Assembly: GCA_026874595.1 (NCBI GenBank)
Contig: CM049308.1
Coordinates: 45,453,327 to 45,517,326, forward strand
Direction of reading: 5' to 3'
DNA length: 64,000 nt
Origin: Sipunculus nudus
Taxonomy: Eukaryota > Annelida > Sipuncula > Golfingiida > Sipunculidae
The position numbers and the translations under genes are program-made. Below are positions 6,621-60,170 of this stretch, piece after piece. The notes below the pieces were generated by a model. It searched no databases and had not been told where the DNA came from. It was given only the letters and a program-made list of their open reading frames with translations. Position 1 is the first letter of the stretch. Each line of letters starts with the position of its first letter.

Positions 6621-6636
6621 AATGGACCATGACTAT

Positions 6637-9344: not shown

Positions 9345-12003
9345 AATGATTGTAGCTGGCACCACCAGTCTTGTATACAAAAAGGTTTCAGAGATATATA
9401 CATATGCCCAAGTTCAGACTGATCTATCAAAACCCTCCTGAGAAATATACAGGGACATACACTGTGCAAAAAATTATTGTAGGTGGCACCACCAGTCTTG
9501 TATACGACAAGTATACAATAATTAAAATACGATAGGTATGAATATGCCCAATTTCAGGATGATATATCAAATTCCTCTATAGAAATAAGCAGGCACAAAA
9601 GTCACACACTGTGCAAATGTCATTGTAGGTGGTGACACCTGTCTTGTGAACGAGAAACCAATCAAAGACACATAGACAGGTCAAAATATTAGGCCAATAC
9701 ATCAAACTTACCTTAAGTCTGATGCATGGGGCTGACCACGCTTAGGTGAGAAAGGCAGTTGCCCCGAGTGAACTGTGACAAATTTGCTAGCTCAGGCTAC
9801 TGCACTGAGTGAACTCATGACCTGCACCTGGCTAGACTGGGTAAACTTTTGACCTGTACCTAACTGTGCTAAGTGAACACTTGACCTATTGCCTAATCTG
9901 ATACAGTTGGCAGTCTACCAACAATATAAATAGATTGGCTCCACATGCAGCCCTGAGGGGCATGACACCCATGAGGGGATCACATGCCTTGTGCTTGGCT
10001 GCACTGACTGAACTCTTGACCTATATCTGGCTGCACTGAATGATCTCTTGATCTATTGCCAAATCTGAAACAGCTGGCAGTTTCTTAACCTATGTAAATA
10101 TAAAGACACAATCCTGGCCTGTTGGCAAATCTTTTTACACATACTGGAAGACTTTGGCTAAAATGCTTTTTTCAAGCTGAAATATTCATAAACTTTTTAT
10201 CAAAATATCTAGAAAAATAAAAGATTCAGTTCTTTCATTGTTAAAGGTCCAATAATTCTGCCAAAAATCATTCAAGTAAACTTGAACAAAGGCCACCTAA
10301 GAATAACTTTTGTGCCACGTAACAGAAGTTATAATTGAAAGAATAATTTTGTAGAAGAACAGTTTTGCAGTCCTCAGTTTGAGTTAGACATAATAATGGC
10401 CATAAGACCAACTTAAGTTTTTCTGATATGATTGAAAGAACCATGTCCTACGATAATTCTTTTGAAAAACTGTACAATTCAACTTGACAGTTTCATCATA
10501 AACATTTTAAGCTGAAAGAGGCTACAATTATGAGGTTTTTGCCCATAAAAAACAGGTCAATGTAGGTGGCACATCAATATCTGCAACTTCAAATATGAGT
10601 CATGTGACCAACATTTGCACAATACTTGGTAATGCTAGCTTCTGTCATTTCTGAGATAACTATGTCAGTATGCTTACTTGGCCAAATGACCGTTCAAGTT
10701 CATTTAACACCACTAAAATTCATCAAATGCAAACCATTTGAACAAACTTGGGAGTGCTTGCCTCTGGGATCATTTCTGTAAAATTTTGAACAATTTGGCT
10801 GGACCGTTTACAAGAAGACTTTTAAAGGTTTTTCAGCTTTTCCCCAATAAAAACTAAGTAAACGCAGATAGCAAAAACATAAGCTGAATCCCACAACATT
10901 TGATATGTGACAGATAATTGCATAAAATCTGGGGATGGTAGCTCCTGCAATTCCTGAGAAATTATGGGTTGATATACAGATCACCTATGACCCCAGTACA
11001 AAAAAAGGTCAAAGCAGGTGGCGCCACCAATACCTGAATTTCATATATGACTCATGTGAACAACACTGGCATAAAATTTGGTGATGATAGCTCTGGACGT
11101 TTCTCAGATTGTCATTTTAGTATGCTTTTTGGACAGATGACAAGGTTCAACTTCCTGTAATTCGGCCAAAATTCACAGAACTTGAACCATTTGAACAAAA
11201 TTGAGAGATGGTATGAAAGATTATTTCTGTGAAATATTGAACAAATTGGCTTGACCATTTCAGAGGAGAAGATTTTTAAAGGTTTTTTAGCTTTAGCTTT
11301 TTCTCTATAAAATCTAAGAAAATGCAGATTTTTTTCAGATGGCTAATTTTTTTTATTAAATTTCATGATGCTAGCTCCAGTCGTTTTCGAAATAGTATGG
11401 GTTAACGTATAACTGTGATTGTAAACATTACCTGGCATGAGGAATATCTAAAATCATAAATCTACATTTTTTAAAAAGTTTTTAAAAACCATTCTTGTCA
11501 ATATTAACCAAAGATAACCTGAAATCTAAATGTCTGGAGGCATGATGTAACGGATGCTGATAAACTGGTTCCAGGCTAGATGTATCTGCTTCACACAGCT
11601 AACATATATGGTAAAATGACTCAATTCAATCTTTATTATTCAGCCAAAATTCATTCTTTGGAACCATAAAAGATAATTATTATAAGAATTATTCAGGGGA
11701 TTATTCTTGTAAAATATTAAACAAATTGGCCTCAGTGGCGTCAGTCAAAAAACTTATTGCAGGTTTATAACTCATATGGGAAAATAAAGCAAAATGGCTA
11801 AGTTAAGCTTCCCATAACTCAGCCAAAAATCACTGAACCAAAACCGTTTGAACAAACTTGAATTATCAACATCTAAGGATAATTAATGTGTGAAATTTAA
11901 GAATTTGGCCCAGTGGTTTTTGAGAAGAAGATCTTTCTGGCAACTGAGCTAAAATGGGCTGTTACAGCATATGACTAAATACCGCTTCCCATAACTCAGC
12001 CAA
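9345..12003 (+). repeat. F4 interior and core
   Basis: The block 'gattgtagctggcaccaccagtc' to about 10100 includes repeated 'tgcactgagtgaactcttgacc' motifs of ~45-bp spacing. It is followed by F4 core units ('ccgtttctgagattgtcatttt', 'gaaccatttgaacaaacttgag') up to the nested F1b insertion. Paralogous to 19150-20140, 40407-41735 and 36890-38800. No gene seen. Confidence 0.6.
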
Positions 12004-12452
12004 CAAGTGACCCAGGGGTCATGACGCTCAGCTGACCAGGAAGACATTGACAAAAGTAATTTTATCATCTGAATGTCAAATTTGAATGAAATACTTTTTC
12101 CAAACTTGACCTTTTGTATAAAATCATCCAATATTCATTGGGGTACTATGGAGCTCTGTAGCATGAAGGATATGGGTAACAGACACCTATTTTCAAGGTT
12201 TACAAGATGACTTTTCAGGGGTCTCCCAGCATGTCAAAAAATAAAATTCTAGGTCCAATTATTATGATTTGTGCCCTGTTAACAAATCCAAATGTTTATT
12301 CTGGGGGGTATTTCAAAGCCGCATAGGATGAAGGATATGGGTAACAGAGATGTAATTTCAGGTGCACAAGGAGACTTTTCAGGGGCCTCCCAGCATATCA
12401 AGAAAGGAGATTCTAGGTCAAGTCATTATAATTTGTGCTCTGTTAACAGATG

Positions 12453-12781: not shown

Positions 12782-14742
12782 ATGACCAAATGTTTAAAGA
12801 TCACAAAAGTAGAGAAAAAAAATCGTAAAAAATAAAAAAAATTGATGAAACACTCCATGGTCAATATCCATGCAAAGAATCATGGTGATTAATGCATTAG
12901 TTGTTCAGATACTTGAGCTTTTGTTTTAAATTTTGCATTATTCTGGGGGGTACTTCAGAACCCCATAGCTCGAAGAATATAGGTCACAGTGACCTAATTT
13001 CAGGTTTACAAGGAGAATTGCCATAGACCTCCCAGGATATCAAGTAAGAAGATTCCCGGTCTGGCAGTTACGATTTGTGCCCTGTTAACAGACAGACGCC
13101 TGGATGGCCGGACAGACGACGGACAAAAGGTGATCCCTACAGCTCAGATGACTTTCAGTCAGCTGAGCTAAAAATTGAAAAAATACAGGTGGCGCCACCA
13201 GAATGCAGAAACTGATGAATTATTTCATGATCAATATCCATGCAAAGAATCATGGTGATCAATATAATAATTGTCCAGATACTTGAGCTTTTGTATCAAA
13301 TTTTCCATTATTCTGGGGGGTACTTCGGAGCCCCATAGCTCAGAGGTTATGGGTAACAGAGACCTAATTTCAAGTTTTTAAGGAAACTTTTCATGGGCCT
13401 CTCAGCATGTCAAGAGAGAAGATTCTAGGTCCAGTTGTTACGATTTGTGCCATGTTAACAGATGACCACATCTTATGAGATCTCAAAAATAGAGAAAAAA
13501 ATTCGTAAAAATAAAATAAATACAGGTGGCGCCACCATACTGCAGTACTGATGACACATTCCATGATCAATATCCATGCAAAGAATCATGGTGATCACTG
13601 CAATAGTTGTTTAGATACTTGAGCTTTTGTATCAAATTGTCCATTATTCTGAGGGATACTTCAGATGACTTACAGTCAGCTGAGCTAAAAACACTTAATG
13701 GTCAATATCCATGCAAAGAATCATGATGATCTCCGTATTAGTTGTTCAGATACTTCAGGTTTTGTATCAAATTGTCCATTATTCTGAGGGCTACTTCAGA
13801 GTCCTATAGCTTGAAGGATATGGGTAACAGAGACCTAATTTCAAGTTTCCACAGGCACTCTTCATGGGCCTCCTTGCATGACAAGAATGAAGTTTCTAGG
13901 TCCAGTTGTTGCAATTTGTACCCTCTTGATAGATAACATAGGTGGCGCCACCAGTCTGCAGGAACTGATGGAACATCTCATAATCAATATGTATGCCAAA
14001 AATCATGACCATCAGTGATGTAGTTATTGAGATATTGAAGTTTTTGTATGAAATTTTTGACTACTCTGGGGGGGTACTTTGGGGCCCCATACCTCGAAGG
14101 ATATGGGTAACAGAGACCTAATTTCTGGTTTCCATGGAGACATTTCATAGGTCTCTCAGTGTGTCAAGAATGAAGATTCTAGGTCCAGTCTTTACGATTT
14201 GTGCCTTGTTAACAGATGTTTACATTTTGAAAAGTCTCAAAAATAGAGAAAAAAATTCGTAAAAAATTGAACGATACAGGTGGCGCCACCAGTCTGCAGG
14301 AAGTGATGGAACATCTCATGATCAATATGTATGACAAAAAATCATGACCAGCAGTCAAGTATTTAATGAGATATTGAAGTTTTTGTTTGAAATTTTATAC
14401 TTTTCTGGGGGGGTAGTTTGGGGCCCCATAGCTCGAAGGATATGGGTAACAGAGACCTAATTTCTGGTTTCCATGGAGACTTTTCATAGGTCTCTCAGTG
14501 TGTCGAGAATGAAGATTCTAGGTCCAGTCGTTATGATTTGTGCCACGTTAACAGATGACAGCATCCTTAAAGGTCTCAAAAATAGAGGAAAAAATCGTAA
14601 AAAATCAAACAATACAGATGGCGCCACAAGTCTGCAGGAACTGATGGAACATTTCATAATCAATATGTATGCCAAAAATCATGACCATCAGTGATGTAGT
14701 TATTGAGATATTGAAGTTTTTGTATGAAATTTTTGACTACTC

Positions 14743-14757
14743 GGGGGGGGGGGGGGG
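14743..14757 (+). repeat. Poly-G run (15 G)
   Basis: An uninterrupted run of 15 G where sister units have 5-8 G ('ctggggggtac'). The site is an unstable homopolymer within the F1b core. Confidence 0.85.
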
Positions 14758-15569
14758 TACTTTGGGGCCCCATAGCTCGAAGGATATGGTTAACAGAGAC
14801 CTAATTTCTGGTTTCCAAGGATATTTTTCATGGACCTCTCAGTGTGTCAAGAATGAAGATTCTAGGTCCAGTCGTTACGATTTGTGCCATGCTAACAGAT
14901 GACAGCATCCTTAAAGGTCTCAAAAATAGAGGAAAAAATCGTAAAAAATCGAACAATAAAGGTGGCACCACCAGTCTGCAGGAAGTGATGACACATCTCA
15001 TGATCAATAGTTATGCCACAAATCTTGACCATCAGTCAAGTAGTTAATGAGATATTGAAGTTTATGTATGAAATTTTTTACTTTTCTTGGGGGTACTTTG
15101 GGGCTCCATAGCTCAAAGAATATGGGTAACAGAGACCTAATTTCTGGTTTCCATGGAGACCTTTCAGAGGTTTCTCAGTGTGTCAAGAATGAAGATTCTA
15201 GGTCCAGTCTTTACGATTTGTGCCTTGTTTACAGATGTTTACATTTTGAAAAGTCTCAAAAATAGAGAAAAAAATTCGTAAAAAATTGAACGATACAGGT
15301 GGCGCCACCAGTCTGCAGGAAGTGATGGAACCTCTCATGATCAATATGTATGCCAAAAATCATGACCATCAGTCAAGAAGTTAATGAGATATTGAAGTTT
15401 TTGTATGAAATTTTGGACTTTTCTGGGGGGTACTTTGGGGCCCCATAGCTCGAAGGATATGGGTAACAGAGACCTAATTTCTGGTTTCCAAGGAGATTTT
15501 TCATGGACCTCCCTGGATATCAAGTAAGAGGATTCCAGTTCTAGCGGTTACGATTTGTGCCTGGTTAAC

Positions 15570-15623
15570 GGACAGACAGACGGACAGACGGACAGACAGA
15601 CAGACAGACAGACGGACGACGGA
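15570..15623 (+). repeat. AGAC/GGAC microsatellite
   Basis: Thirteen or so GACA/GACG tetranucleotides immediately before the F1b terminal hairpin at 15641-15669. Confidence 0.85.
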
Positions 15624-16799
15624 CAAAGAGTGATCGCTATAGCTCAGATGACTCTCAGTCAGCTGAGCTAAAAATCACTGAACTGAGACCATTTGAATAA
15701 ACTTCAGAAAGCACTACCCTAGGATCATTTCTGTGCGATATTAAACAATTTGGCCATATAGTTTCAAGAGAAGAAGTTTTTTGTTGACGTCAGTATGATA
15801 TGGGCACTGATGACCCCTGTACAAAAAAGGCTGATAAAGGTGGTGCCACCAATATCTCAATTTCAAATATGACTCATCTGACCAACATTGGCATAAAATT
15901 TGGTGATGATAGGTCCAGCCTTTTCTGAGATTGTAATTTTAGTATGCTTTTTTGGACAGAAGACTAACTTCAACTTCTTGTAACTCGGCCAAAAATCATC
16001 GAACTTAAACCATTTGAACAAACTTGAGATAGGTTGTTCCGGGGATCATTTCTATAAAATATTGAACAATTAGGCTGAACAGTTTGAGAGAAGAAGATTT
16101 TTAAAGCTTTTTTAGCTTTATCCCCATAAAATCTAAGAAAATGCAGTTAGCCAAAAAATAAGCAAAATCCGATAGGGTTTTTAGATGACTAATTTTTTGC
16201 ATAAAATTTGGTGATGCTAACTCTTTCCGTTTTCAAGATGGTATGGGTTAACGTACAGAGGACGGACGATGGACGGACGGACGGAAGACGGACGACGCCA
16301 TACCATCGCATAAGCTCACAGGTTCGCTAAAAAGTCCTTAGCTGTAACATGTTTTGTGTTAAGTGATCAAATATCTTTCCTGATTTTTTTGCAAAATGCT
16401 TTATGTTTGAGCCCGTAACTTTTTTAAATTATACAATACAGACCTAATTTCTGGTATGTACATAGGAACTGTATAAAGGAATATTTATGGTAAATATGAG
16501 AAAAAACAGATGAGTGGTTTTGATATTAGGCAGTCCTGAAGTGTGAAAATCGGTTTTTAAAAAACAAGGCCTACAGGCCTTATGTGAACCTGTGCATTGG
16601 GAAATACACCAGGTATAATGCTTCAATGCTGGACCACTACTTCTCATTATTATAAACAATGCAGGTACTAAACATTTTGAATAAGAAACATTTACACAAA
16701 CATCACTGCTGAAATTCTGGCATAGGTGCACACAACACAACTAGGCACCCATGGGTCTCGACACTCAGCTGAATTTGTCTATAAGGATATTTTTAAAGA

Positions 16800-17879: not shown

Positions 17880-18784
17880 CTAGAATACGGGTAGTCGAAA
17901 AGGGACTACATGTATCTGCCAAAATCAGAGTAGGACGGGTGAAGTGAGGCATGGATTGAGTGGCAAGGGGAAACAGAGTTACATGTGTTACAGATTATAA
18001 TGGATGTCTGCCATGTAAACATGATTGAAGGTGGCGCCATCTGTTAACTGAACAAGAAACTATCCATGATGTATACACATGCAAAATTTCAGGTGGAAAA
18101 GTCAAACCACTGCAGAGATATGAGTGATTTTATCCGACAGCAGACAAAACAGATGGATGCTGTGCAAAAATGGCTGCAGGTGGCGTGACCATGTTTGTGT
18201 ATGTTATAAAGCTATCCAAGGGCTACATTTGTGTAGAAATTTTTCCCTGATTGGTCAAACAAGTCAGGAGATATAAGCATTAATGTCTGCAGCGTGAACG
18301 TGAATAAAGCTAGGGCAACCTGTCATAAAATCAAGAAAGCTATCCAGGATGTATACGCATGCCAAATTACAGGTAATTTGGTCAAACCACTGCAGAGATA
18401 TGATTGATTTTAACCCAAGGCAGATTAACAGATGAACACTGTGCAAGCATGGTTGCAGGTGGCGCCACCATTTTTTGTGTTTGTTATAAAGCTATCCAAG
18501 GGCTACATTTGTACAAAATTTTTTTCCTGATCGGTCAAACGGTTCCTGAGATATTAGGGTTTATATGTGGAAACAGATGCACAAACGGACACTGAGCAGA
18601 GAGGAAAGGTCAGAGGTCAAGGCCAATTGGTAAGGCATCAGTTCACATGTGACCCGATAATTGGTGTAAGTTTCCGAAAAATCTGTCCAGTAGTCTCAGA
18701 GGAATTCTCCGGAAACAAAGGCGGTGGCGGCCGCGGGTCCCGGTCAAAAACATAGTATCTACAAAACTTCGTTTTGGTGGATAC
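17880..18784 (+). mobile_element. F3 element, complete, 905 bp
   Basis: It starts CTAGAATACGGGTAGTC with the subterminal motif GTATCTGCCAAAATCAGAG (17912-17930), which is a near reverse complement of the right arm of its own 3' hairpin (18755-18784). The core has two ~277-bp-type units with GGTGGCGCCAT and GGTGGCGCCACC. Left flank 'aaatagaaaa' and right flank 'aaatatctgttaaaatagg' rejoin the uninterrupted sequence at 8560-8590 and 40030-40062 without target duplication. Non-coding. Confidence 0.8.
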
Positions 18785-18799
18785 AAATATCTGTTAAAA

Positions 18800-19149
18800 T
18801 AGGAAAAAGTACAGGTGGCGCCACCACATTTCAGGAACTGACAAAATTAGTCATGGTCAATATTCAAGGCATGATTCAAGACAAACCATGCATTAATCAA
18901 GATATTGAAGGTTTAGTATCAAATTTTTTACTATCCTGGGTATTACTTTCAAACCCAATAGCTCAAAGGATATACGTCGCAGTGACCTAATTTCCAGTTT
19001 CCAAGGAGATTTTTTATTGACCTCCCTGGATCTTCACTTACGATTACGATTTGTGCCTTGCTAAAGGACTGCCAGACGCCCGGACGTCCGGACGGACGAC
19101 AGACAGGCGCCATTCCTTAACCTCAGTTGACTTACAGTCAGCTGGGCTA
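18800..19149 (+). repeat. F1b-like single unit with terminal hairpin
   Basis: GGTGGCGCCACC at ~18816, one 'tttcaggaactgacaaaa...tagtcatggtcaatattc' unit, a GGACG-rich stretch and an F1-type hairpin (~19120-19149). Paralogous to 8600-8940, 32300-32640 and 40070-40406. Confidence 0.65.
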
Positions 19150-20143
19150 AAAATGATTGTAGCTGGCACCACCACACTTGTATACAACATAGCTATCAGA
19201 AATATATAAATATCCAAAGTTCAGACTGATATATCAAACCCCTCCTGAGAAATAAACAGGGACACACACTGTGCAAAAATTATTGTAGGTGGCACCACCA
19301 GTCTTGTATATGACAAAGCTATTTGATAGGGTAAAAATATGCAAAATTTCAGGATGATATATCTAATCCCTCTATAGAAATAACCTGGCACAAAAATCAC
19401 ACACTGTGCAACAGTCATTGTAGGTGGTGACACCTGTCTTGTGAACGAGAAAGCCATCAAAGACACATAGACAGGTCATAATATCAGGCCAATACATCAA
19501 ACTTACCTTGAGTCTGATGCATGGGGCTGACCAGGCTTTGGTGAGAAAGGCAGTTGCCCTGAGTGAACTGTGACAAATTTGCTGGCTCGGGCTACTGCAC
19601 TGAGTGAACTCATGACCTGCACCTGGCTAGACTGGGTGAACTTTTGACCTGTACCTGGCTGCACTGAGTGAACTCTTGACCTGTTGCCTAATCTGATACA
19701 GTTGGCAGTCTGCCAAAGCTATAAATAGATTGGCTCCACATGCAGCCCTGAGGGGCATGACACCCATGAGGTGATCACATTGTGCCCATGAGGTGTTCAC
19801 ATGTCACCCATGAGGGGATCACATGCCATGTGCTTGGCTGCACTGACTGGACTCTTGACATATATCTAGCTGCACTGAATGAACTCTTGATCTATTGCCA
19901 AATCTAAAACAGTTGGCAGTTTCTTAACCTACTTAAATATACAGACACAATCTTGGCCTGTTGGCAAATCTGTTTACACATACTGAAAGACTTTGGCTAA
20001 AATGCTTTTTTTCAAGCTGAAATATTCTTAAACGTTTTACCAAAATATCTAGAATAATAAAAGATACAGTTCTTTCATTGTTAAAGGTCCAATAATTCTG
20101 CCAAAAATCATTCAAGTAAACTTGAACAAAGGCCACATAAGAA
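19150..20143 (+). repeat. F4 interior block
   Basis: Paralogue of 9345-10300 and 40407-41450: 'gattgtagctggcaccacca', repeated 'actgagtgaactcttgacc' motifs, and three copies of 'cacccatgaggtgatcaca'-like motifs near 19767-19830 that act as a small tandem repeat. No gene seen. Confidence 0.6.
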
Positions 20144-24932: not shown

Positions 24933-26229
24933 CTAGAACATGGGTAGTCAACAAGCCACTACGTGTATCCTCCAAAATCAGAGTGGGAAAGATGAAGTGA
25001 GGCATGGATTGAGTGGCAAGGGGAAATAGAGTGAGGTGTGTTGCACAATAGCCTGGATGTCTACAGCTGAAATGTGTATGTAGGTTGCGCAACCTACCAC
25101 AAAATCCAGAAAGCTGTCCAAGATGTATAAATATGCAAATTTTAGGCAGATAAGTCAAACCACTACTGAGATATGAGTGATTTTAGCCCATGACAGACAA
25201 ACAGTGGGACACTGTGCAAAAATTTCAGGGGGATATGTCAAACCAGTCCTGATATACAAGCCTGAATGTGTGCAGCATAATCCAGAGAGCTATACAAGAT
25301 GTGTAAACATGCAAAATTTTAGGCAGATAAGTCAAACCACTACTGAGATATGAGTGATTTTAGCACACGGCAGAAAAACAGACGGAGGCTGTGCAAAAAT
25401 GGTGGCAGGTGGCACCACCAATTTTGTGTATGATTAAGAGATATGTGAGATCTATACACATGCAAAATTTCAGGGGGATATGTCAAACCAGTCCTGAGAT
25501 ATAAGCCTTAATGTCTGCAGTGTATACATAAATGTAGGTGGCGCCACCTGCCACAACATCCAGAAAGCTATCCAAGATGTATAAACCTGCAAAATTTTAG
25601 GCAGATATGTCAAACCACTGCTAGGATATGAGTATATATTATCCCAATGTAGATGAACAGATGGATGCTGTGCATAAATGGTTGCAGGTGGCGCCACCAG
25701 TTTTGCCTATGATGAAGAGCTATGTGAGATCTATACACATGCAAAATTTTGGCCCAATCGGTCAAAAAGTAACTGAGATATGAGCTTGGATGTCTGCAGA
25801 GTAAATGTGAATGTAGGTGGCGCCACCTGTCATAAAATTGAGAAAGCTGTCCAGGTTGTATAAACCTGCAAAATTTCAGGTAGATAAGTCAAACCACTGC
25901 TGAGATATGAGTGATTTTATCCAAAGGCAGATGAACAGATGGACGCTGTGCATAAGTTGTTGCAGGTGGCGCCACAAGTTTTGCCTATGATGAAGAGCTA
26001 CGTGAGATCTATACACATGCAAAACTTTGGCCCAATCTGTCAACCGGTTACCGAGATATGAGCTTGGATGTCTGCAGAGTAAACATGAATGTAGGTGGCG
26101 CCGCCTTTCATAAAATCGAGAAACCTGTCCAGGATGTATAAACCTGCAAAATTGCATGTGGATAAGTCAAAGGCCGCCCTTATTGACACACTGGGTGTGT
26201 CATACCGGGCCGTGTAGGAGAAGTGGTGC

Positions 26230-31085: not shown

Positions 31086-31370
31086 TAAGTCAAACCACTG
31101 CTGAGATACGAGTGATATTATCCCAAGGCAGATGAACAGATGAACGCTGTGCAAAAATGGTTGCAGGTGGCGCCACCATTTTTAGTGTATGATATAAAGC
31201 TATCAAAGGGCTACATTTGTGCAAAATTTTTAGCCTGATCGGTCGAACGGTTCCCGAGATATGCGGGTTTATGTGTGGAAACAGACATACAAATGGAAGC
31301 TGGGCAGCAAGGAAAGGTCAGAGGTCAACAAAAAATGAGGGTGCAGCAGTTCACATGTGACCTGATGATA

Positions 31371-32297: not shown

Positions 32298-32299
32298 AA

Positions 32300-39044: not shown

Positions 39045-41735
39045 GAAAATGCATTGGGAAATACAACAGGTATAATGCTTCAATGCTGGACCATGACTTC
39101 TCATGTATATGAACAATGCTGGTGTTAAACATTTTGAATAAGAAACAATTACACAAACATCACTGCTGAAATTCTGGCATGGGTGCACACAACACATCTG
39201 GGGACCCATGGGTCTCAACGCTCAATTGAATTTGTATATAAGGATATTTTGAAAGAAATTTTTCAGAATGACAGTCCTGTGACCTTAACCAATGACCTTG
39301 TAACCAAAAAATCTTAGAACTTAATATCCTTGAACTTGCAGCATTAGGATTATTGTAACAATCTTTTAAAAAGTGACCTTGACCTCTGACCAGATAACCT
39401 CAAATTCTACAGGTTTCCTCACTTTGGGCAAGTAAGCCATGTGTGAATGTTGGAAAGTTCAGGATGAAAAGTTTGATTTACAGTGCATCCACAATCTTTT
39501 TAAAGATGTGGCTTCTGTGACCTTCAACTTAGATCGCAGGACCCTGAAAATCAAAATGAATTTTCATATGTGGTTGGTCATTATTAAACCAAGTTTGAAG
39601 CCAGTCTGTCTATCCAAAGCAGAATTATCATCCATAAACTAATTTGTGAATGGATGGGCCCTGTGACCTTGACCTTTGACCTATGACCCAAAAATCAAAC
39701 AGAATCTTCCCCTAGTGGCAGGTTAGCAATATCTTGAAGATGGAAGGTTTGCGATGAAAAGTTTGGCTTCAAATGCATACACATTCCTTAGTGGTGGGCC
39801 ACTAAGTTAAGTTTGAAACTAATATATAAAACTTAACTGGAGTTATCATCTGGAAACTAATATGTGTGGATGGACGGATTGATAGACAGACAGACAGACA
39901 TACAAACAGACAGACTGACAGACAGGTTGATTAGTATATGGCATCCACTTGTGATCAGTAAACACACCAGGTTTTGGGTCACCAGATGTAATGACAGCTT
40001 AGAACCTGACATGATTGTTGTCATTTTATAGGAAATAAATAGAAAAATATTTGTTAAAATACGAAAACCACCATGTTTCAGGAACTGACAAAACTAGTCA
40101 TGGTCACTAATTAAGGCAAAATTCATGACAAACCATGCATTAATTATCAAGATATTGGAGGTTTTGTATCAAATTTTTTACTATTCTGGGGGGTACTTTC
40201 AAGCCCTATAGCTCGAAGGAAAAAGGTCGCACTGACATAATTTCAGGTTTCCAAGGAAATTTAAACTGACCTCCCTGGATGTTCACTTGAAGTTTCTAGG
40301 ACCAGCTGTTATGATTTGTGCCCAGCTAATGGACGGCTGGACGCCAGACGGACGACGGACAAAGCACCATTCCTATACCTCAGTTGACTTACAGTCAGCT
40401 GAGCTAAAAATGATTGTAGCTGGCACCACCAGTCTTGTATACAAAAAGATTTCAGAGATATATACTTATGCCCAAGTACAGACTGATATATCAAACCCCT
40501 CCTGAGAAATAAGCAGGGACACACACTGTTCAAAAAATTATTGTAGGTGGCACTACCAGTCTTGTATAAGACAAGTATATGATAATTAAAATACGATAGG
40601 TATAAATATGCCCTTAAAATATGATAGGTATAAATATGTCCAATTTCAGGATGATATATCAAATTCCTCTATAGAAATAAGCAGGCACAAAAGTCACACA
40701 CTGTGCAAATGTCACTGTAGGTGGTGACACCTGTCTTGTGAACGAGAAACCCATCAAAGACACATAGACAGGTCAAAATATTAGGCCAATACATCAAACT
40801 TACCTTAAGTCTGATGCATGGGGCTGACCACGCTTAGGTGAGAAAGGCAGTTGCCCCGAGTGAACTGTGACAAATTTGCTAGCTCAGGCTACTGCACTGA
40901 GTGAACTCATGACCTGCACCTGGCTAGACTGGGTGGACTTTTGACCTGTACCTGGCTGCACTGAGTGAACTCTTGACCTGTTGCCTAATCTGATACAGTT
41001 GGCAGTCTGCCAAAGCTATAAATAGATTGGCTCCACATGCAGCCCTAAGGGGCATGACACCCATGAGGTGATCACATGGTGCCGATGAGGTGTTCACATG
41101 TCACCCATGAGGAGATCACATGCCTTGTGCTTGGCTGCACTGACTGAACTCTTGACCTATATCTGGCTGCACTGAATGAACTCTTGATCTATTGCCAAAT
41201 CTGAAACAGTTGGCAGTTTCTTAACCTATGTAAATATACAGACACAATCTTGGCCTGTTGGCAAATCTGTTTACACATACTTAAAGACTTTGGCTAAAAT
41301 GCTTTTTTTCAAGCTGAAATATTCATAAACTTTTTAGCAAAATATCTAGAAAAATAAAAGATTCAGTTCTTTCATTGTTAAAGGTCAAATAATTCTGCCA
41401 AAAATCATTCAAGTAAACTTGAACAAAGGCCACCTAAGAATAATTTTTGTGCCATGTAACAGAAGTTATAATTGAAACAACAATTTGTAGCAGAACAGTT
41501 TTGCAGTCCTCAGTTTGAGTTAGACATGATAATGGCCATGAGACCAACTTAAATTTTTCTGATATGATTGAAAAAACCATGTCCTATGATAATTCTTTTG
41601 AAAAATTGAACGATTCAACTTGACAGTTTCATCATAAACATTTTAAGCTGAAAGAGGCTACAATTATGAGGTTTTTGCCCATAAAAAACAGGTCAATGTA
41701 GGTGGCACATCAAAATCTGCAACTTCAAATATGAG
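39045..41735 (+). repeat. F4-type composite segment
   Basis: Paralogue of 7300-10620 without the inverted block: F4 left region lacking its head, TGACCT-rich core (39260-39690), GACA run (39885-39925), F1b-like unit with hairpin (40070-40406), then the F4 interior to 41735. It gives the uninterrupted reference for several insertions described above. Confidence 0.65.
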
Positions 41736-44807: not shown

Positions 44808-45606
44808 ACAAGGCCTAAAGGCCTAATACGAACCTTTGCAATCAGGTATAATGCTTCCATGCTAGACCATTACTTTTCAAGTACATTTGTAACATGTATA
44901 TGGACAATGCAAGTACTAAACATTTTGAACAAGAAACAATTACACCAACATCACTGCTGAAATTCTGGCATGGGTCCATACAACACAAAAATTATTGTAG
45001 CTGGCACCACCAGTCTTGTATACAATGAAGCTCAAAGATATATACATATGCCCAATTTCAGACTAATATGTCAAACCCCTCCTCAGAAATAAGCAGGGAT
45101 ATACACTGTGCATGAATTATTGTAGGTGGCGCCACCAGTCTGGTACACAATACAGCTATCAGATATGTATAACTATGCCCAATTTCAGGCTGATATACCA
45201 AATTCCTCCGTAGAAATTAGCAGGCACATACACTTTGCAAAAGTCATTGTAGGTGGCAATTCCTTTCTTGGAATAAGAAAGCCATCAATGATGCATAGAC
45301 AGGTAAACATATTAGGCCAATGCATCAAACTTCCCTTGAGTTTGATGCACTGGGCTGACCAGGCTTAGGTGAGAAAGGCAGTTGCCCCGAGTGAACTGTG
45401 ACAAATTGCTTCCTCAAGCTACTGCACTGAGTGAACTCTTGACCTGCACCTGGCTAGACTGAGTGAACCTTTGACCTGTACCTGGCTGCATTGAGTGAAC
45501 TCTTGACCTGACATAGTTGGTAGTCTGTCAAAGCTACATTTTCCAAATACAAAATGCTTTTCAACTGACTTTTTATTAAAAAAAGAAATTAGGAATATAT
45601 GAAAAA

Positions 45607-51316: not shown

Positions 51317-54300
51317 CTAGAATATGGGTAGTCAACTATGTGTATCTGCGGAAATCAGAGTGGGACAGGTGAAGTGAGGCATGGATTAAGTTGCAAGGGG
51401 AACAGAGTGAGGTGTGTTGCATAATCACGTAAACGTGAATGTAGGTGGTGCAAACTGTCATAAAATCTAGAAAATTGTCCAGGATGTCTGCAAAATTTCA
51501 GGTGGATAAGTCGAACCACTGCTGAGATATGAGTGATTTTATCCCAAGGCAGATGAACAGATGAATGCTGTGCATAAATGGTTGAAGGTGGCGCCACCAG
51601 TTTTGCCTATGATGAAGAGCTATGTGAGATCTATACATAAGCAAAATTTTGGCCCAATTGGTCAAACGGTTCCCGAGATATAAGCTTGGATGTCTGCAGA
51701 GTAAACGTGAATGCAGTTGGTGCCACCTGTCATAAAATAGAGAAAGCTGTCCAGGATGTATAAACCTGCAAAATTTCAGGTGGATAAGTCAAGCTGCTTT
51801 TGTGATATGAGTGATTTTATCCCAAGGCAGATGACCAGATGGATGCTGGGCATATGTGGTTGCAGGTGGTGCCACCAGTTTTGCCTATGATGAAGAGCTA
51901 TGTGAGATCTATACACATGCAAAATTTTGGGCGAATCGGTCAAACGGTTCCAGAGTTATGAGCTTGAATGTCTAAAGAGTAAACCTGAATGGAGGTGGCG
52001 CCCCTGTCATAAAATCAAGAGAGCTGTCCAGGATGTTCAAATCTGCAAAATTTCAGGTGGATAAGTCAAACCACTGCTGAGATATGAGTGATCTGATCCC
52101 AAGGCAGATGAGCAGATGGACTCTGTGCATAAATGGTTGCAGGTGGTGCCACCACTTTTCCCTATGATGAAGAGCTATGTGAGATCTAAACACATGCAAA
52201 CTTTTGGCCCAGTCGGTCAAACCGTTCCCAAGATAAGAGCTTGGATGTCTGCAGAGTAAACCTGAATGAAGGTGGCGCCACATGTCATAAAATCGAATAA
52301 GCTGTCCAGGATGTATAAACCTTCAAAATTTGAGGTGGATAAGTCAAACCACTTCTGAGATATGAGAGATGTTATCCCAAGGCAGATGAACAGATGGATG
52401 CTGTGCATAAATGGTTACAGGTGGCACCACCAGTTTTGCCGATGATGAAAAGCTATGTGAGGACTATACACCTGCAAAATTTTGGCCCAATCTGTCAAGG
52501 TTCCTGAGATATGAGCTTGCATGTCTGCAGAGTAGACTTGAATGGAGGTGGCGCCACCTGTCATAAAATCAAGAGAGCTGTCCAGGATGTTTAAACATTC
52601 AAAATTTCAGGTGAATAAATCAAACCACTGCTGAGATGTGAGTGATTTTATCCCAAGGCAGATGAACAGATGGACACTGTGCATAAATGATTACAGGTGG
52701 CACCACCAGTTTTGCCTATGATGAAAAGCTATGTGAGGACTATACACATGCAAACTTTGGCCCAATAAGTCAAACTGAGCCTGAGATATAAGCTTGGATG
52801 TCTGCAGAGTAAATGTGAATGTAGGTGGCACCACCTGTCATAAAATCAAGAAATCTGTCCAGGATGTATAAACCTGCAAAATTTCAGGTGGATAAGTCAA
52901 ACCACTGCTCAGATATGAGTGATTTTATCCCAAGGCAGATGAACAGATGGACGCTGTGCATATGTGGTTGCACGTGGTGCCACTAGTTTTGCATATGATG
53001 AAAAGCTATGTGAGATCTATGAACATGCACAAATTTGGAGCTTGGATGTCTGCAGAGTAAACCTGAATGGAGGTGGTGCCACCTGTCATAAAATCAAGAA
53101 AGCTGTCCAGGATGTATAAACCTTCAAAATTTCAGGTGGATAAGTCAAACCACTGCTCAGATATGAGTGATTTTATCCCAAGGCAGATGAACAGATGGAC
53201 GCTGTGCATAAATGGTTGCAGGTGGCGCCACCGGTTTTGCCTATGATGGAGAGCTTTGTTTGAGATCTATGCACATGCACAACTTTGGCCCAATCGGTCA
53301 AATGGTTCTCGAGATACGAGCTTGTATGTCTGCAGAGTAAATGTAAATGTAGGTGGCGTCACCTGTCATAAAATCGAGAAAGCTGTCCAGAATGTATAAC
53401 CTGCAAAATTTCAGGTGGACAGGTCAAACCACTTCTGAGATATGAGTGATTTTATCCCAAGGCAGATGAACAGATAGACTCTGTGCATAAGTGGTTACAG
53501 GTGGCGCCACCAGTTTTGCCAATGATGTGAGATCTATACACATGCAAACTTTTGGCTCAATTGGTACAAAACGGTTCCCGAGATAAGAGCTTGGATGTCT
53601 GCAGAGTAAATGTGAATGGAGGTGGCACCACCTGTCATGAAATCAAGAGAGCTGTCCAGGATGTTTAAACCTTCAAAATTTCAGGTGGAAAAGTCAAACC
53701 ACTGCTGAGATATGAGTAATTTTATCCCAAGGCAGATGAACAGATGGACGCTGTGCATAAATGGTTTCAGGTGGTGCAATGAGATATGAGCTTGGATGTC
53801 TGCAGAGTAAATTTGAATGTAGGTGGAGCCACCTTTAATAAAATCAAGAGAACTGTCCAGGATGTATAAACCTTCAAAATTTGAGGAGGATAAGTCAAAC
53901 CACTTCTGAGATATGAGTGATTTTATCCCAAGGCAGATGAGCAGATGGATGCTGTGCATAAATGGTAACAGGTGGCACCACCAGTTTTGCCGATGATGAA
54001 AAGCTATGTGAGGACTATACACCTACAAAATTCTGGCCCAATCTGTCAAGGTTCCTGAGATATGAGCTTGGATGTCTGCAGAGTAAACATAAATGGAGGT
54101 GGCGCCACCTGTAATAAAATCAAGAGAGCTGTCCACGATGTTTAAACCTTCAAAATTTCAGGTGGATAAGTCAAACCACTGCTCAGATATGAGTGATTTT
54201 ATCCCAAGGCAGATGAACAGATGGACGCTGTGCATAAATGGTTACAGGTGGCACCACCAGTTTTGCCTATGATGAAAAGCTATGTGAGGACTATACACAT

Positions 54301-57300
54301 GCAAACTTTGGCCCAATCAGTCAAACGGTGCCTGAGATATGAGCTTGGACGTCTGCAGAGTAAACCTGATCGGAGGTGGCGCCACATGTCATAAAATCAA
54401 GAAAGCTGTCCAGGATGTATAAACCTGCAAAATTTCAGGTGGATAAGTCAAACCACTGCTGAGATATGAGTGATTTTATCCAAAGGCAGATGAACAGATG
54501 GACGCTGTGCATGTGGTTGCAGGTGGTGCCACTAGTTTTGTATATGATGGAAAGCTAGGTAAGATCTGTGCACATGCACAAATTTGGCCCAATCAGTCAA
54601 ATGGTTCATGAGATATGAGCTTGGATGTCTGCAGAGTAAACCTGAACAGAGGTGGCGCCACCTGTCATAAAATCAAGAAAGCTGTCCAGGATGTATAAAC
54701 CTTCAAAATTTCAGGTGGATAAGTCAAACCACTGCTGAGATATGAAAGATTTTATCCCAAGGGAGATGAACAGATGGACGCTGTGCATACATGGTTGCAG
54801 GTGGCGCCACCAATTTTGAATATAATGGAGATCTTTGTGAGATCTATGCACATGCACAACTTTGGCCCAATCGGTCAAATGGTTCCTGAGATATGAGCTT
54901 GGATCTCTGCAGAGTAAATGTGAATGTAGGTGGCACCACCTGTCATAAAATCAGGATGTTTAAACCTTCAAAATTTCAGGTGCATAAGTCAAACCACTCC
55001 TGTGATATGAATGATTTTATCCCAAGGCAGATGAACAGATGGACACTGTGCATAAATGGTTGCAGGTGGCGCAATCACTTTTGCCTATGATGGAGAGCTA
55101 TGTCAGATCTATGCACATGCACAACTTTGGCCCAATCAGTCAAACAGTTCCTGAGATATGAGCTTGGATGTCTGCAAAGTAAACATGAATGGAGGTGGCG
55201 CCACCTGTCATAAAGCAGAACGCTGTCCAGGATGTATAACCTGCAAAATTTTAGGGGGAAAAGTCAAACCACTGCTGAGGTATGAGTAATTTTATCCCAA
55301 AGCAGATGAACAGATGGATGCTGTGCATAAAAGGTTAAAGGTGGCACGACAAGTTTTGCCTATGATGAAAAGCTAAGTGAGATCTATGCACATGGACAAG
55401 TTTAGCCCAATCGATCAAATGATTCCTGAGATATGTGCTTGGATGTCTTCAGAGTAAATGTGAATGTAGGTGGCACCACCTGTTATAAAATCGAGAAAGC
55501 TGTCCAGGATGTAAAAACCTGCAAAATTTCAGGTGGATATGTTAAACTACTACTCAGATATGATTGATATTATCCCAAGGCAGATGAACAGATGGACGCT
55601 GTGCATAAATGATTGCAGGTGGCGCCACCGGTTTTGCCAATGATGTGAGATCTATACACATGCAAACTTTTGCCCAATCGATCAAACGGTTCCCGAGATA
55701 AGAGCTTGGATGTCTACAGAGTAAATCTGAATGGAGGTGGCACATCCTGTCATAAAATCAAGAGAGCTGTCCAGGATGTTTACACCTTCAAAATTTCAGG
55801 TGGAAAAGTCAAACCACTGCTGAGATATGAGTGATTTTATCCCAAGGCAGATGAACAGATGAACGCTGTGCATAAGTGGTTACAGGTGGCGCCACCAGTT
55901 TTGCCTATAATGTGAGATCTATACACATGCAAACTTTTGCCCAATCGGACAAATGGTTCCCGAGATAAGAGCTTGGATGCCTGCAGAGTAAACCTGAATG
56001 GAGGTGGCACCACCTGTCATAAAATCAAAAGAGCTGTCCAGGATGTTGAAACCTTCAAAATTTCAGGTGGAAAAGTCAAACCACTGCTGAGATATGAGTG
56101 ATTTTAACCAAAGAGAGATGAACAGATGGACGCTGTGCATAAATGGTTACAGGTGGCGCCACCAGTTTTGCCTATGATGAAGAGCTATATGAGATCTATA
56201 CAGAAGCAAACTTTTTGCCCAATCTGTCAAACGATTCCCGAGATAAGAGCTTGGATGTCTGCAGAGTACACCTGAATGAAGGTGGCACCACCTGTCATAA
56301 AATCAAGAGAGCTGTCCAGGATGGTTAAACCTTCAAAATTTCAGATGGAAAAGTCAAACCACTGCTGAGATATGAGTGATTTTATCCCAAGGCAGATGAA
56401 CAGATGGAAGCTGTGCATAAATGGTTGCAGGTGGCGCCACCAGTTTTGCCTATGATGGAGAGCTATGTGAGATCTATGCACATGCACAACTTTGGCCCAA
56501 TCAGTCAAACATTTCCTGAGATATGTGCTTGGATGTCTGCAGAGTAAACCTCCATGTAGGTGGCACCACCTGTCCTAAAATCAAGAAAGCTGTCCAGGAT
56601 GTATAAACCTGAAAAATTTCAGGTGGATAAGTAAAACCACTGTTCAGATATGTGTGATTTTATCCCAAGGCAGATGAACAGATGGACCCTGTGCATAAAT
56701 GGTTGCAGGTGGCACAACCACTTTTGCCTTTGGTGAAGAGCTATGTGAGATCTATACAAATGCAAAATTTTGGCCCAATCTGTCAAATGGTTCCCGAGAT
56801 ATGAGCTTGGATGTCTGCAGAGTAAACCTGAATATAGGTGGCACCACCTGTCATAAAATAGAGAAAGCTGTCCAGGATGTAGAAACCTGCAAAATTTCAG
56901 GTTGATAAGTAAAACCACTGCTTAGATATGAGTGATTTTATCCCAAGGCAGATGAACAGATGGACGCTGTGCATAAATGGTTGCAGGTGGCGCAACCACT
57001 TTTGCCTATGGTAAGAGCTATGCGAGATCTATAGACATGCAAACTTTTGGCCCAATCGGTCAAATTGTTCCAGAGATATGAGCTTGGATGTCTGCAGAGT
57101 AAATGTGAATGTAGGTGGTGCCACCTGTCATAACATCGAAAATGCTGTCCATGATGTAGAAACCTGCAAAATTTCAGGAGGATAAGTAAAACTACTTCTG
57201 AGATATGAGTCATTTTATCCCAAGACAAATGAACAGATGGAAGCTGTGCATAAATGGTTGCAGGTGGCACAACCACTTTTGCCTTTGATGAAGAGCTATG

Positions 57301-60170
57301 TGAGATCTATACAACTGCAAAATTTTGGCCCAATCTGTCAAATGGTTCCCGAGAAATGAGCTTGAATGTCTGCAGAGTTAACCTGAATGGAGGTGGCACC
57401 ACCTGTCATAAAATCAAAAGAGCTGTCCAGGATGTTGAAACCTTCAAAATTTCAGGTGGAAAAGTCAAACCAATGCTGAGATATGAGTGATTTTATCCCA
57501 AGGCAGATAAACAGATGAACGCTGTGCATAAGTGGTTATAGGTGGCGCCACCAGTTTTGCCTATGATGTGAGATCTATACACATGCAAACTTTTGCCCAA
57601 TCGGTCAAACGGTTCCCGAGATAAGAGCTTGGATGTCTGCAGAGTAAACCTGAATGGAGGTGGCACCACCTGTCATAAAATCAAGAGAGCTGTCCAGGAT
57701 GTTGAAACCTTCAAAATTTCAGGTGGAAAAGTCAAACCACTGCTGAGATATGAGTGATTTTATCCCAAGGGAGATGAACAGATGGATGCTGTGCATAAAT
57801 GATTACAGGTGGCGCCACCAGTTTTGCCTATGATGAAGAGCTATATGAGATCTATATAGTAGCAAACTTTTTGCCCAATCGGTCAAACGATTCCCGAGAT
57901 ATGAGCTTGGATGTCAGCAGAGTACACCTGAATGGAGGTGGCACCACCTGTCATAAAATCAAGAAAGCTGTCCAGGATGGTTAAACCTTCAAAATTTCAG
58001 ATGGAAAAGTCAAACCACTGCTGAGATATGAGTGATTTTATCCCAAGGCAGATGAACAGATGGAGGCTGTGCATAAATGGTTGCAGGTGGCGCCACCAGT
58101 TTTGCCTATGATGGAGTGCTATGTGAGATCTATGCACATGCACAACTTTGGCCCAATCAGTCAAACATTTCCTGAGATATGTGCTTGAATATCTGCAGAG
58201 TAAACCTGCATGTAGGTGGCACCACCTGTCATAAAATCAAGAAAATTTCAGGTGGATAAGTAAAATCACTGTTCAGATATGTGTGATTTTATCCACAGGC
58301 AGATGAACAGATGGACCCTGTGCATAAATGGTTACAGGTGGCACCACCAGTTTTGCCTATGATGAAAAGCTATGTAAGGACTATACACATGCAAACTTTG
58401 GGCCGATGGGTCAAACAGTTCCTGAGATATGAGCTTTGATGTCTGCAGAGTAAATGTGAATATAGGTGGCACCACCTGTCATAAAATTGAGAAAGCTGTC
58501 CAGGATGTTTAAACTTTCAAAATTTCAGGTGGATAAGTCAAACCACTGCTGAGATGTGAGTGATTTTATCCCAAGGCAGATGAACAGATGGACGCTGTGC
58601 ATAAATGGTTGCAGGTGGGGCAACCACTTTTGCCTATGGTGAAGAGCTATGTGAGATCTATCCACATGCAAAATTGTGGCCAAATCTGTTAAGGTTCTTG
58701 AGATATGAGCTTGGATGTCTGCAGAGTAAATGTAAATGGAGGTGGCGCCACCTGTCATAAAATCAAGAGAAATGTCTAGGATGTTTAAACCTGCAAAATT
58801 TCAGGTGGTAAAGTCAAACCACTGCTCAGATATGAGTGATTTTATCCCAAGGCAGATGAACAGATGGATGCTCTGCATAAACGGTTATAGTTGGCGCCAC
58901 CAAATTAGCCTATGAAGAAAAGTTATGTTAGAACTATACACATGCAAACAGTTGGCCCAATCGGTCAAACGTTTCCCGAGATATGAGCTTGGATGTCTGC
59001 AGAGTTAACCTGAATTTAGGTGGCACCACCTGTCATAAAATCGAGAAAGCTGTCCAGGATGTTTAAACCTGCAAAATTTCAGGTGGATAAGTCAAACCAC
59101 TGCTAAGATATGAGTGATTTTATCCCAAGGCAGATGAACAGATGGACGCTGTGCATAAATGGTTGCAGGTGGCACCACCAGTTTTACCTATGTTGAAAAG
59201 CTATGTGAGACTTATACACATGCAAACGTTGGCCCATCGGTCAAACGGTTCCCGAGATATGAGCTTGGATGTCTGCAGATATCTGAATGCAGGTGGCGCC
59301 ACATGTCATAAAATTGAGAAAGCTGTCCAGGATGCATAAACCTGCAAAATTTCAGGTGGATAAGTCAAACCACTGCTGAGATATGAGCGATTTTATCCCA
59401 TGGCAGATGAACAGATGGACCCTGTGCATAATTGGCTGCACTTGGTGCAACCACTTTTGCCTATGATGGAGAGCTATGTGAGATCTATGCACATGCACAA
59501 CTTTGGCCCAATCAGTCAAACGGTTACTCAAACATGAGCTTGGATGTCTGCAGAGTAAACCTGAATGGAGGTGGTGCCACCTGTCATAAATCGAGAGAGC
59601 TGTCCAGGATGTTTAAACCTTCAAAATTTCAGGTGGATAAGTCAAACCACTGCTGAGATATGAGTGCTTTATCCCAAGGCAGATGAACAGATGGACACTG
59701 TGCATAAATGGTTACAGGTGGCACCACCAGTTTTGCCTATGATGAAAAGCTATGTGAGAACTATAAACCTGCAAACCTTTGGCCCAATTGGTCAAATGGT
59801 TCCATAGATATGAGCTTGGATGTCTGCAGAGTAAACCTGAATGGAGGTGGCGCCACCTGTCATAAAATCAAGAGATCTGTCTAGGATGTTTTAACCTGCA
59901 AAATTTCAGGTGGAAAGTCAAACTACTGCTGAGATATGAATGATATTATCCCAAGGCAGATGAACAGATGGACGCTGTCCAAAAATGGTTGCAGGTCGCA
60001 CTATCAAAGGGCTACATTTGTGCAAAATGTTAAGCCTGATTGGTCAAACGGTTCCTGAGATATCTGGGTTTATGTGTGGAAACAGATGCACAAATGGACC
60101 CTGGGCAGCGAGGAAAGGTCAAAGGTCAACCAAAAATGAGGGTGCAGTAGTTCACATGTGACCTGATAAA
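51317..60170 (+). mobile_element. F3 element with hugely expanded core array
   Basis: Head CTAGAATATGGGTAGTC at 51317 with subterminal GTATCTGCGGAAATCAGAG, then the array, then the F3 tail ('ggaaacagatgcacaaatgg', 'aaaggtcaaaggtcaacc', 60075-60135). The hairpin terminus is replaced by the same sequence as after 31371. A complete small F3 copy (17880-18784) has only about two core units, so the family's core number varies at least fifteen-fold. Confidence 0.7.
51440..59990 (+). repeat. Satellite-like array, ~32 units of ~271 bp
   Basis: Unit landmark 'gctgtgcataaatggttgcag' recurs about 32 times from ~51568 to ~59977, mean period ~271 bp (full units ~277, variants ~267, occasional ~200-250). 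Each unit has two GGTGGCGCCACC-type palindromes, ~149 and ~128 bp apart, one followed by 'tgtcataaaatc' and one by 'agttttgcctatgatg'. Open frames here (~60-110 codons) are by-products of the repeat and show no protein identity. Confidence 0.9.

Follow-up and report, generated by a model that had tools for sequence, protein, structure and literature searches.

Results

The window (the whole 64-kb stretch of DNA that was analyzed) contains a main core array in which diverged half-units A and B alternate, together with smaller groups of core units and the ends of HINEs (Table 1). With up to 3 mismatches allowed, the array comprises 61 palindrome-anchored half-units, and it ends on the right with a deleted unit of the Ax type. 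The spacing of the palindrome, GGTGGCGCCACC, is mostly 129 or 149 bp, so that the TRF period of 277-278 bp is that of a dimer of A plus B. At ≤2 mismatches, the array holds 57 of the window's 103 matches to GGTGGCGCCACC (17 of the 57 being exact), one per half-unit; a sequence-only reading of this DNA had placed the palindrome at regular positions in the cores between 51440 and 59990, where these matches lie, and this regularity was borne out. We named the core families A, B, Ax, and C to I, and we could not equate them individually with the F3, F1b, F4, and F5 of that reading.

Table 1. Core units, palindrome matches, and HINE features of the window
Feature	Position(s)	Strand	Remarks
Main core array	51429..60001	+	Alternating half-units A (~149 bp) and B (~129 bp), one palindrome each; from TRF, sequence, anchors, and spacings
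D-type core units	13188..15569	+	Period-337 array at 13940-15569 plus two earlier units; one palindrome per unit
Second A/B-type array	25047..26171	+	Cut off at 26171; GGTTGCGCAACC in first unit
Ax unit, then C-type units	9025..9639	+	
Successive B-like, Ax, F, and C units	18030..19434	+	
C-type units	40419..40731	+	Start directly beside HINE end at 40394
C-type units	45000..45136	+	Resemble the uninterrupted form of the site hit by the HINE ending at 40409
E-type unit palindrome	1809..1820	+	Further E-type: 11017, 15839, 31827, 37230, 38334
Remaining 46 GGTGGCGCCACC matches, first part	181-440, 1809, 9025-9639, 11017, 13188-15309, 15839, 18030-19434, 21053		
Remaining 46 GGTGGCGCCACC matches, second part	25083-26105, 31166-32318, 37230, 38334, 40419-40731, 42834, 45000-45136, 45840-45999, 46472		
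HINE 5' end	13158..13173	-	TTTT + subTIR AGCTCAGCTGAC
Further HINE 5' end motifs	6654, 15658, 19137, 24615, 36875, 39033, 40394, 42791; weaker 11939, 13675	-	
HINE 3' palindrome	12009..12020	-	GACCCATGGGTC type, 1 mismatch; 3' subTIR 5 nt inside
Further HINE 3' palindromes	2964 (3 nt), 4028, 7448, 16746, 21252, 33182, 39203		
(GTCY)n microsatellite	15571..15625	-	GACA on plus strand; between D array and 5' end at 15658
Similar (GTCY)n microsatellite	6560-6621		

Enrichment of the 12-mer, which the sequence-only reading had proposed as a check, was found at both scales: the 103 matches in the window (33 exact) compare with a mean of 0.44 and a largest value of 3 in shuffled sequence, and 111,729 exact sites genome-wide compare with 14 for the reversed pattern used as a control. 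When 20 stretches of 10 kb were sampled at preset places in the first 20 Mb of five contigs, the most widespread complex 12-mers were GGTGGCGCCACC and an overlapping 12-mer, each present in 12 of the 20 stretches (51 and 70 copies). The window gave no Rfam match at gathering cutoffs. The one literature match for the exact 12-mer concerned an endochitinase and was unrelated by its title and abstract, and a search for TGGCGCCA together with motif and binding-site terms gave, among the matches listed, none on such repeats as judged by title.

Anatomy of the elements

The elements that carry the palindrome have the anatomy of HINEs, which are non-autonomous Helentrons. Matches to the 5' end motif TTTTAGCTCAGCTGAC (≤2 mismatches) numbered 27 in the window and a 200-kb sample, although a few of these matches resemble an opposite-strand reading of the IR; the IR CTGAGCTA (≤1 mismatch) lay within 40 nt in 22 of the 27, and the left-flank microsatellite (at least 4 GTCY in the next 124 nt) followed in 20. 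Most HINE ends start with TTTT. At the other end, GACCCATGGGTC (≤1 mismatch) gave 55 readings with both strands counted, 30 of which had the 3' subTIR TCAGCTGAGC (≤3 mismatches) within 60 nt, and in 26 of those 30 it lay exactly 5 nt inside the palindrome. The order 3' palindrome, core arrays, microsatellite, 5' end was found in L016, L020, and L023. Between 12009 and 15673 of the window, this order is broken by two extra 5' end motifs, one before the D-type stretch (13158) and one within it (13675), as nesting predicts. The 5' end matches of the window, 11 in number, all lie on the minus strand, and a HINE insertion at 39203-40409 interrupts a C unit for which the units at 45000 offer a plausible empty site.

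Scoring of 150 of 195 candidates gave 143 matches to Helitron_like_N. A 2,235-amino-acid open reading frame in L039 has predicted Helitron_like_N, PIF1 helicase, and endonuclease domains and represents an open gene of the Helentron type in this genome; the surrounding 10-kb stretch, which extends only ~1.0 and 2.3 kb past the open reading frame, yielded no HINE ends of the kind described above.

Spaced boxes and kinship of the core units

The core unit has up to three boxes, namely, the palindrome, an AAATTT-like box ~44 to 46 bp downstream, and a GAGATA-like box ~75 to 77 bp downstream. Readings with the GAGATA-like box (≤1 mismatch) at +77 numbered 15 of 29 for A, 17 of 26 for D, and 8 of 11 for E, and in B the box was at +75 in 24 of 32; the AAATTT-like box was present at +46 in all 11 E readings. 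Exact AAATTT lies 36 to 50 nt from an exact palindrome in 49,040 genome matches (control, 0), and locally it was found near 38 of 83 exact palindromes, versus 6.5% of random sites. The triple-box pattern had 0 matches in the viral and 0 in the prokaryote collections. The palindrome core resembles E2F, SMAD, and CTCF half-sites, and we claim no identity with any of them.

Models built without the 12-mer recovered the unit in register in several families, and among 151 full-start units found in this palindrome-blind manner, 134 had the palindrome (≤2 mismatches) at the expected spot (random places, 2.2%) and 17 had more than 2 mismatches there. With the family models, more than 2 mismatches were seen in 11 of 37 D, 7 of 20 E, 5 of 12 F, 11 of 67 C, and 1 of 34 Ax units. 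Family A was linked to each of the eight other families (z, 2.6 to 7.4). The pairs C-E, C-F, and E-G had no detectable direct similarity (z, 0.4, -0.2, and -0.1), and their kinship is therefore traced by way of A; neither D nor E units were significant alone against the A/B models (E value, 0.14 and above). We concluded that most core families descend from one common unit, with the link weaker for D, E, F, and H, and that the families have the 12-mer in common through this descent. The sequence-only reading had described the sequences around the palindrome as not alike. They are indeed unlike by eye, but the palindrome-blind models and the boxes show most of them to be related, so that common descent of the cores, which that reading had named as the outcome that would tell against it, is largely what was found (units in register without the palindrome and boxes equally spaced).

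Between family consensuses, mean identity was 0.92 at the 12-mer and 0.51 to 0.56 in the flanks (chance, ~0.47), a contrast inflated by the fact that the nine families compared (36 pairs; G and H are single sequences and F is two) were chosen for carrying the 12-mer. Inside the main array, the 12-bp window ranked only 26th of 136 among A units and 59th of 136 among B units (two B units being counted as A). Thus, the claim that the palindrome is better kept than its surroundings held between families and failed inside the array. Among the 151 palindrome-blind units, it ranked 11th of 131 by weighted majority and 3rd by information, and the boxes ahead of or level with it in this ranking belonged to the finding model. 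Its most variable part is the central CpG. Protection of this CpG, entertained as a separate candidate, was unsupported (78 CG versus 59 TG/CA among the 151 units; retention, 0.57, compared with 0.22 to 0.69 for the unit's other CpGs).

Breaks in unit homology, mapped from HSP ends and by pairwise comparison, fell mostly at -40 to -31 and +80 to +89, the edges of the compared stretches aside. A minority of first units break 1 to 13 nt upstream of the palindrome. A recombination hot spot at the palindrome (as in phBglII400) was considered and dropped, since the breaks lie mostly elsewhere and several of the near ones are nested HINE insertions.

Discussion

Taken jointly, the results make it probable, in our judgment, that GGTGGCGCCACC is a conserved box of an old HINE central repeat and a putative protein site whose keepers are propagated or tolerated. 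It is among the best-conserved boxes of an old tandem unit of roughly 130 to 150 bp, which one branch has incorporated in a 337-bp unit, and this tandem unit forms the central repeats of HINEs, which belong to the rolling-circle transposons of the Helentron group. Between families, the palindrome has been kept while much of the unit diverged to near-chance similarity. A protein may read it as a specific sequence, most simply as a dimer on the two GGTGG/CCACC arms, and the copies propagated or tolerated would then be those that keep the site. It may serve element propagation as a binding site.

Descent might account for everything if a common ancestor and the recent amplification of a few master copies had left the families with a 12-mer that has no function of its own. 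We regard this as unlikely but as a serious contender: common descent is demonstrated for most families, the palindrome of the main array is kept no better than its flanks, and its central CpG decays as CpGs do elsewhere. Neutral descent would, however, erode 12-mer and flanks alike, yet between families they differ (0.92 versus 0.51 to 0.56), although this contrast is enlarged by the choice of families. The opposite idea, raised in the sequence-only reading, that unrelated families acquired the site independently, draws on the fact that D, E, and A/B units are unlike by eye and that some pairs, C-F among them, are no more alike than chance predicts; but A, D, and E have a like box at a like distance and A is tied to all eight other families, and given units in register and boxes recurring at equal spacing, independent acquisition is strongly disfavored and, to our minds, scarcely credible.

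Besides plain descent, the main rival is that the A-rich tract immediately preceding the palindrome, with the palindrome possibly as a guide, is a favored target for new HINE insertions; carriage of the tract would aid the formation of nested, co-oriented composites that amplify together, and this is compatible with our preferred explanation. The exact palindrome lies 0 to 30 nt outside 1,299 of 35,284 exact HINE ends, whereas its density predicts 86 (~15-fold enrichment), with many differing offsets among the junctions listed. It lies (≤2 mismatches) within 60 nt of 4 of 27 local ends (binomial P of 0.02), and the single orientation of the 5' ends in the window also fits. However, much of the list consists of one junction type, so that copies of a single insertion inflate the count. 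HINEs are in any case reported, in the available part of PMC4067079, to prefer T-rich targets, and the palindrome happens to have an A/T tract next to it. We consider a landing site doubtful. Still less probable is a hairpin or cruciform acting in rolling-circle replication or array expansion, for which the tests were mixed and mostly unfavorable. The palindrome is self-complementary, and among 216 local sites, 4 variants were self-complementary versus 0.73 expected under independence (two of the four are identical), which points towards symmetry being kept and led us to give a structural role slightly more weight. Genome-wide, GATGGCGCCATC occurs 431 times versus 203 expected from its 9,525 singles, and in a different satellite, from a clam, a 12-bp palindrome marks junctions at 13 of 16 breakpoints (PMC5139131, available part). 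On the other side, the genome-wide frequency of asymmetric double variants is no lower (927 for two types together versus 130 and 431 for symmetric ones, a comparison that rests on these counts and on local per-position rates rather than on a genome-wide count of single AGTGGCGCCACC), so that the excess of doubles is ascribed to old copies with many changes. Only 6 of 49 local double variants are symmetric, versus 20% expected; the HINE already has a 3' palindrome of its own; and unit homology breaks mostly at about -35 and +85, outside the palindrome. Recognition of a set sequence fits the 130, 431, and 927 counts better than pairing does.

If GGTGGCGCCACC is indeed a conserved protein site of the HINE repeat, the palindrome and its two spaced boxes might further constitute a genome-wide protein platform, in which a DNA-binding protein of the host or the element, bound at >100,000 sites within HINEs, would shape the chromatin or direct where Helentrons insert; we offer this tentatively. 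On this view, a single regular binding site would have been spread through a 1.4-Gb animal genome by one group of transposons. In the parts of the bivalve satellite literature available, it is left open why HINEs and related elements have satellite-like central repeats and why short motifs persist in repeats that are otherwise unlike. The motif kept here is sharply defined, extremely frequent, and at near-fixed spacing to two boxes, which makes it directly testable, and GGTGGCGCCACC provides a simple sequence handle for tracing the nesting and spread of such elements.

The comparisons that follow refer to the available parts of the papers cited. DINE-1 elements and Helentrons (PMC4067079) have subTIRs, an IR, a stem-loop near the 3' end, a microsatellite, and central repeats, as do the elements described here, and they insert in T-rich targets, as the elements here may do. 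Autonomous Helentrons encode Rep/helicase and endonuclease (PMC4067079), as does the 2,235-amino-acid open reading frame of L039, which differs in that its 10-kb stretch lacked detectable ends of the type that the elements here use. A later classification puts pearl elements among the non-autonomous Helentrons (PMC7492417), and the palindrome of the DTC84 and pearl-like elements of bivalves (PMC5139131) can be set beside GGTGGCGCCACC by description only. The BIV160/Cg170 satellite family (PMC5139131, PMC7492417) likewise is tied to Helitron-type elements, and its diverged monomers have two motifs conserved amid otherwise changing sequence; compared by description only, those two motifs stand against as many as three boxes in the units described here, including a perfectly palindromic one. 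Cg_HINE of the Pacific oyster (PMC7492417), also likened by description and not by sequence letters, has a left flank with a subTIR, an IR, and a GTCY-type microsatellite, satellite-like central repeats of ~140 to 180 bp, and a right flank with a subTIR and a palindrome. The account available mentions no conserved palindrome inside its central repeats, and its longest array has 29 monomers, versus the 61 palindrome-anchored half-units of the main array here. As in the window, a Cg_HINE element can hold two differing arrays, and its dissimilar monomer clusters have short conserved segments in common (PMC7492417).

Results

The window contains 103 matches to the self-complementary 12-mer GGTGGCGCCACC at up to two mismatches (33 are exact), where 0.44 would be expected; the presence of the palindrome in the core repeats that the sequence-only reading had noticed is far above chance. 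The main array accounts for 57 of the 103 and is built of two alternating half-units, A (~149 bp) and B (~129 bp), with one palindrome per half-unit. The enrichment extends to the whole assembly (1,426,538,692 bases in 153 contigs), which has 111,729 exact copies and only 14 of the reversed form; a further 45,683 sites (22,877 + 22,806) carry CA or TG in place of the central CpG. In a sample of 20 stretches of 10 kb, drawn from five contigs at predefined positions within their first 20 Mb and so covering the genome unevenly, GGTGGCGCCACC and the overlapping AGGTGGCGCCAC (51 and 70 copies) were the most widespread complex 12-mers, each occurring in 12 stretches; the best 12-mer overlapping neither occurred in 9.

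The elements carrying the palindrome have the anatomy of HINEs (nonautonomous Helentrons), with the core arrays as central tandem repeats. Reading along the window's minus strand, the 5′ end consists of TTTT and the subTIR AGCTCAGCTGAC, ten nucleotides, and the inverted repeat CTGAGCTA (found in 22 of 27 end matches), 3′ of which lies a GTCY microsatellite (20 of 27) and then the core arrays. The 3′ end consists of the subTIR TCAGCTGAGC, mostly five nucleotides, the palindrome GACCCATGGGTC, and usually CCTTGTTT or a close form. Genome-wide, there are 35,284 copies of the exact 16-nt end formed by TTTT and the 5′ subTIR. All 11 of the 5′ end matches in the window are on the minus strand, and self-matches within positions 1 to 60800 are direct in 693 cases and inverted in 18, several of the latter being TA-rich or self-palindromic; this one-way orientation would be accounted for if elements nested by inserting into oriented targets. 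Other features are listed in the table.

Coordinates of features in the window and in two stretches outside it (L017 and L039)
Feature	Stretch	Positions	Strand	Description
Main array	Window	51429-60001		Alternating A and B half-units
Hairpin	Window	60248-60266; 31469-31510		TCTAGACA-3 nt-TGTCTAGA or close form, in flank after Ax units
Hairpin	L017	8004-8046		As above
Inverted sequence	Window	8035-8126		Near-perfect, ~94 bp
219-bp stretch beside it	Window	Within 8035-8343		Inverted copy (98.6%) of 9682-9900; 32-bp subrepeats
Fragments of other elements	Window	44250-44804; 62189-62740		Reverse-transcriptase RNase H domain and zf-RVT domain
Open Helentron-type ORF, 2,235 aa	L039	2310-9014	Minus	Helitron_like_N, PIF1 helicase, endonuclease, and OTU domains

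With 150 of the 195 candidates scored, the genome has at least 143 matches to Helitron_like_N. No HINE ends were found in the 10-kb stretch around the 2,235-aa ORF, which reaches only ~1.0 and 2.3 kb beyond it, so the ORF is at most a candidate partner of the HINEs.

The cores had been described as unrelated, a view that mostly does not hold. Profiles made from the post-palindrome sequence of the main array, searched against the remaining window sequence after masking of palindromes (up to three mismatches), matched other families at the spacing predicted from those families' palindromes. E values went down to 1.3e-40 in an array at 25 kb, the G unit reached 3.7e-11, and several C units fell between 4.7e-6 and 0.008; no reversed or shuffled control did better than 0.16. 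D and E units matched in register without significance (E ≥0.5 with the first models and ≥0.14 with a narrower model spanning +18 to +88 from the palindrome). Outside the main array, the narrower model had 31 matches at E ≤0.05; 22 have the palindrome where predicted and 9 lack it there, 3 of these 9 beginning well inside the model. Of its 171 matches in the window and sample together, 151 extend to the model start, and 134 of these have the palindrome (up to two mismatches), compared with 2.2% of random places. Single-family models, likewise built without the palindrome and with overlapping match sets, recovered it in 26/37 (D), 13/20 (E), 7/12 (F), 56/67 (C), and 33/34 (Ax) cases. Among nine family consensuses (36 pairs), A showed a link to all eight others (z = 2.6 to 7.4), and several pairs not involving A were similar only at chance level.

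Units also share the spacing of two other boxes. A GAGATA-like box (up to one mismatch) starts at +77 in 15/29 A units, 17/26 D readings, and 8/11 E readings and at +75 in 24/32 B units; in the remainder it is shifted by small indels or absent. An AAATTT-like box lies at +46 in 11/11 E readings and 13/29 A units and at +44 in 25/32 B units, and D units have a different sequence in its place. Exact AAATTT 36 to 50 nt from an exact palindrome occurs 49,040 times in the genome (control, 0), and locally it accompanies 38/83 exact palindromes versus 6.5% of random sites. The AAATTT...GAGAT stretch (+46 to +80) may resemble a repeat sequence known in moths and other animals.

The proposal that the palindrome is better kept than the flanking core was borne out between families and failed inside the main array. 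Across the nine consensuses it is 0.92 identical, against 0.51, 0.53, and 0.56 for upstream and downstream flanks (chance, ~0.47 from single-base shuffles), a comparison favored by the choice of families for carrying the 12-mer, a bias that the palindrome-blind counts limit and do not remove. Among 131 windows of the 151 blind units, its rank is 3 on information and 11 on weighted majority, near those of the two boxes that served to find the units. Within the main array it ranks only 26/136 (A, with two B units counted among them) and 59/136 (B), mainly because the central CpG varies: the ten arm positions without it have majorities of 0.96 to 0.97 against a mean of 0.88 to 0.90. There was no sign of special protection of that CpG, whose retention in the 151 units (0.57) falls within the range of other unit CpGs (0.22 to 0.69). 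Observed/expected CpG is 0.26 in positions 51430 to 60000 and 0.42 elsewhere in the window; the low value would fit repeat methylation.

Discussion

We infer that the palindrome is most likely a sequence-specific site, which would be read by a putative dimeric protein. If base pairing were instead the preserved property, changes in one arm should be matched in the other, and local self-complementary variants do exceed expectation (4 versus 0.73; 216 sites). Local symmetric doubles make up 6/49 overall, with 20% expected. Genome-wide, in a comparison made without the count of single AGTGGCGCCACC, the symmetric doubles AGTGGCGCCACT and GATGGCGCCATC number 130 (control, 26) and 431, the latter against 203 expected from 9,525 singles under independence. 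However, the two asymmetric combinations sum to 927, also above the ~473 expected under independence (twice the geometric mean, assuming alike rates in both arms, which is roughly true locally). Since asymmetric doubles are frequent too, we take the GATGGCGCCATC excess to reflect old, many-changed copies, and on balance base pairing tentatively does not seem to be what is preserved.

The main functional alternative to a protein-binding site is that HINEs may favor landing beside the palindrome. An exact palindrome lies 0 to 30 nt outside the element at 1,299 HINE ends (701 + 598), or 3.7% of the 35,284, whereas palindrome density alone predicts 0.24%. Copying inflates this count, as one junction recurs many times among those listed; many others differ, so copies of one insertion and repeated independent landings probably both contribute.

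Several of these features belong to known systems. The domains of the 2,235-aa ORF match the Helentron layout of PMC4067079. In four stretches outside the window (L010, L016, L020, and L023), D units follow an A/B array in the same reading direction, resembling the double arrays reported for oyster Cg_HINE elements (PMC7492417). HINEs with satellite-like central repeats, whose dissimilar monomers share short motifs, are in print (PMC7492417 and PMC5139131), as is the conserved palindrome that DTC84 has close to its repeat junction (PMC5139131). A literature search found no paper with the 12-mer in such repeats, most published repeat letters lying in figures and supplements. Set beside these systems, the motif here is unusually frequent and sharply defined.
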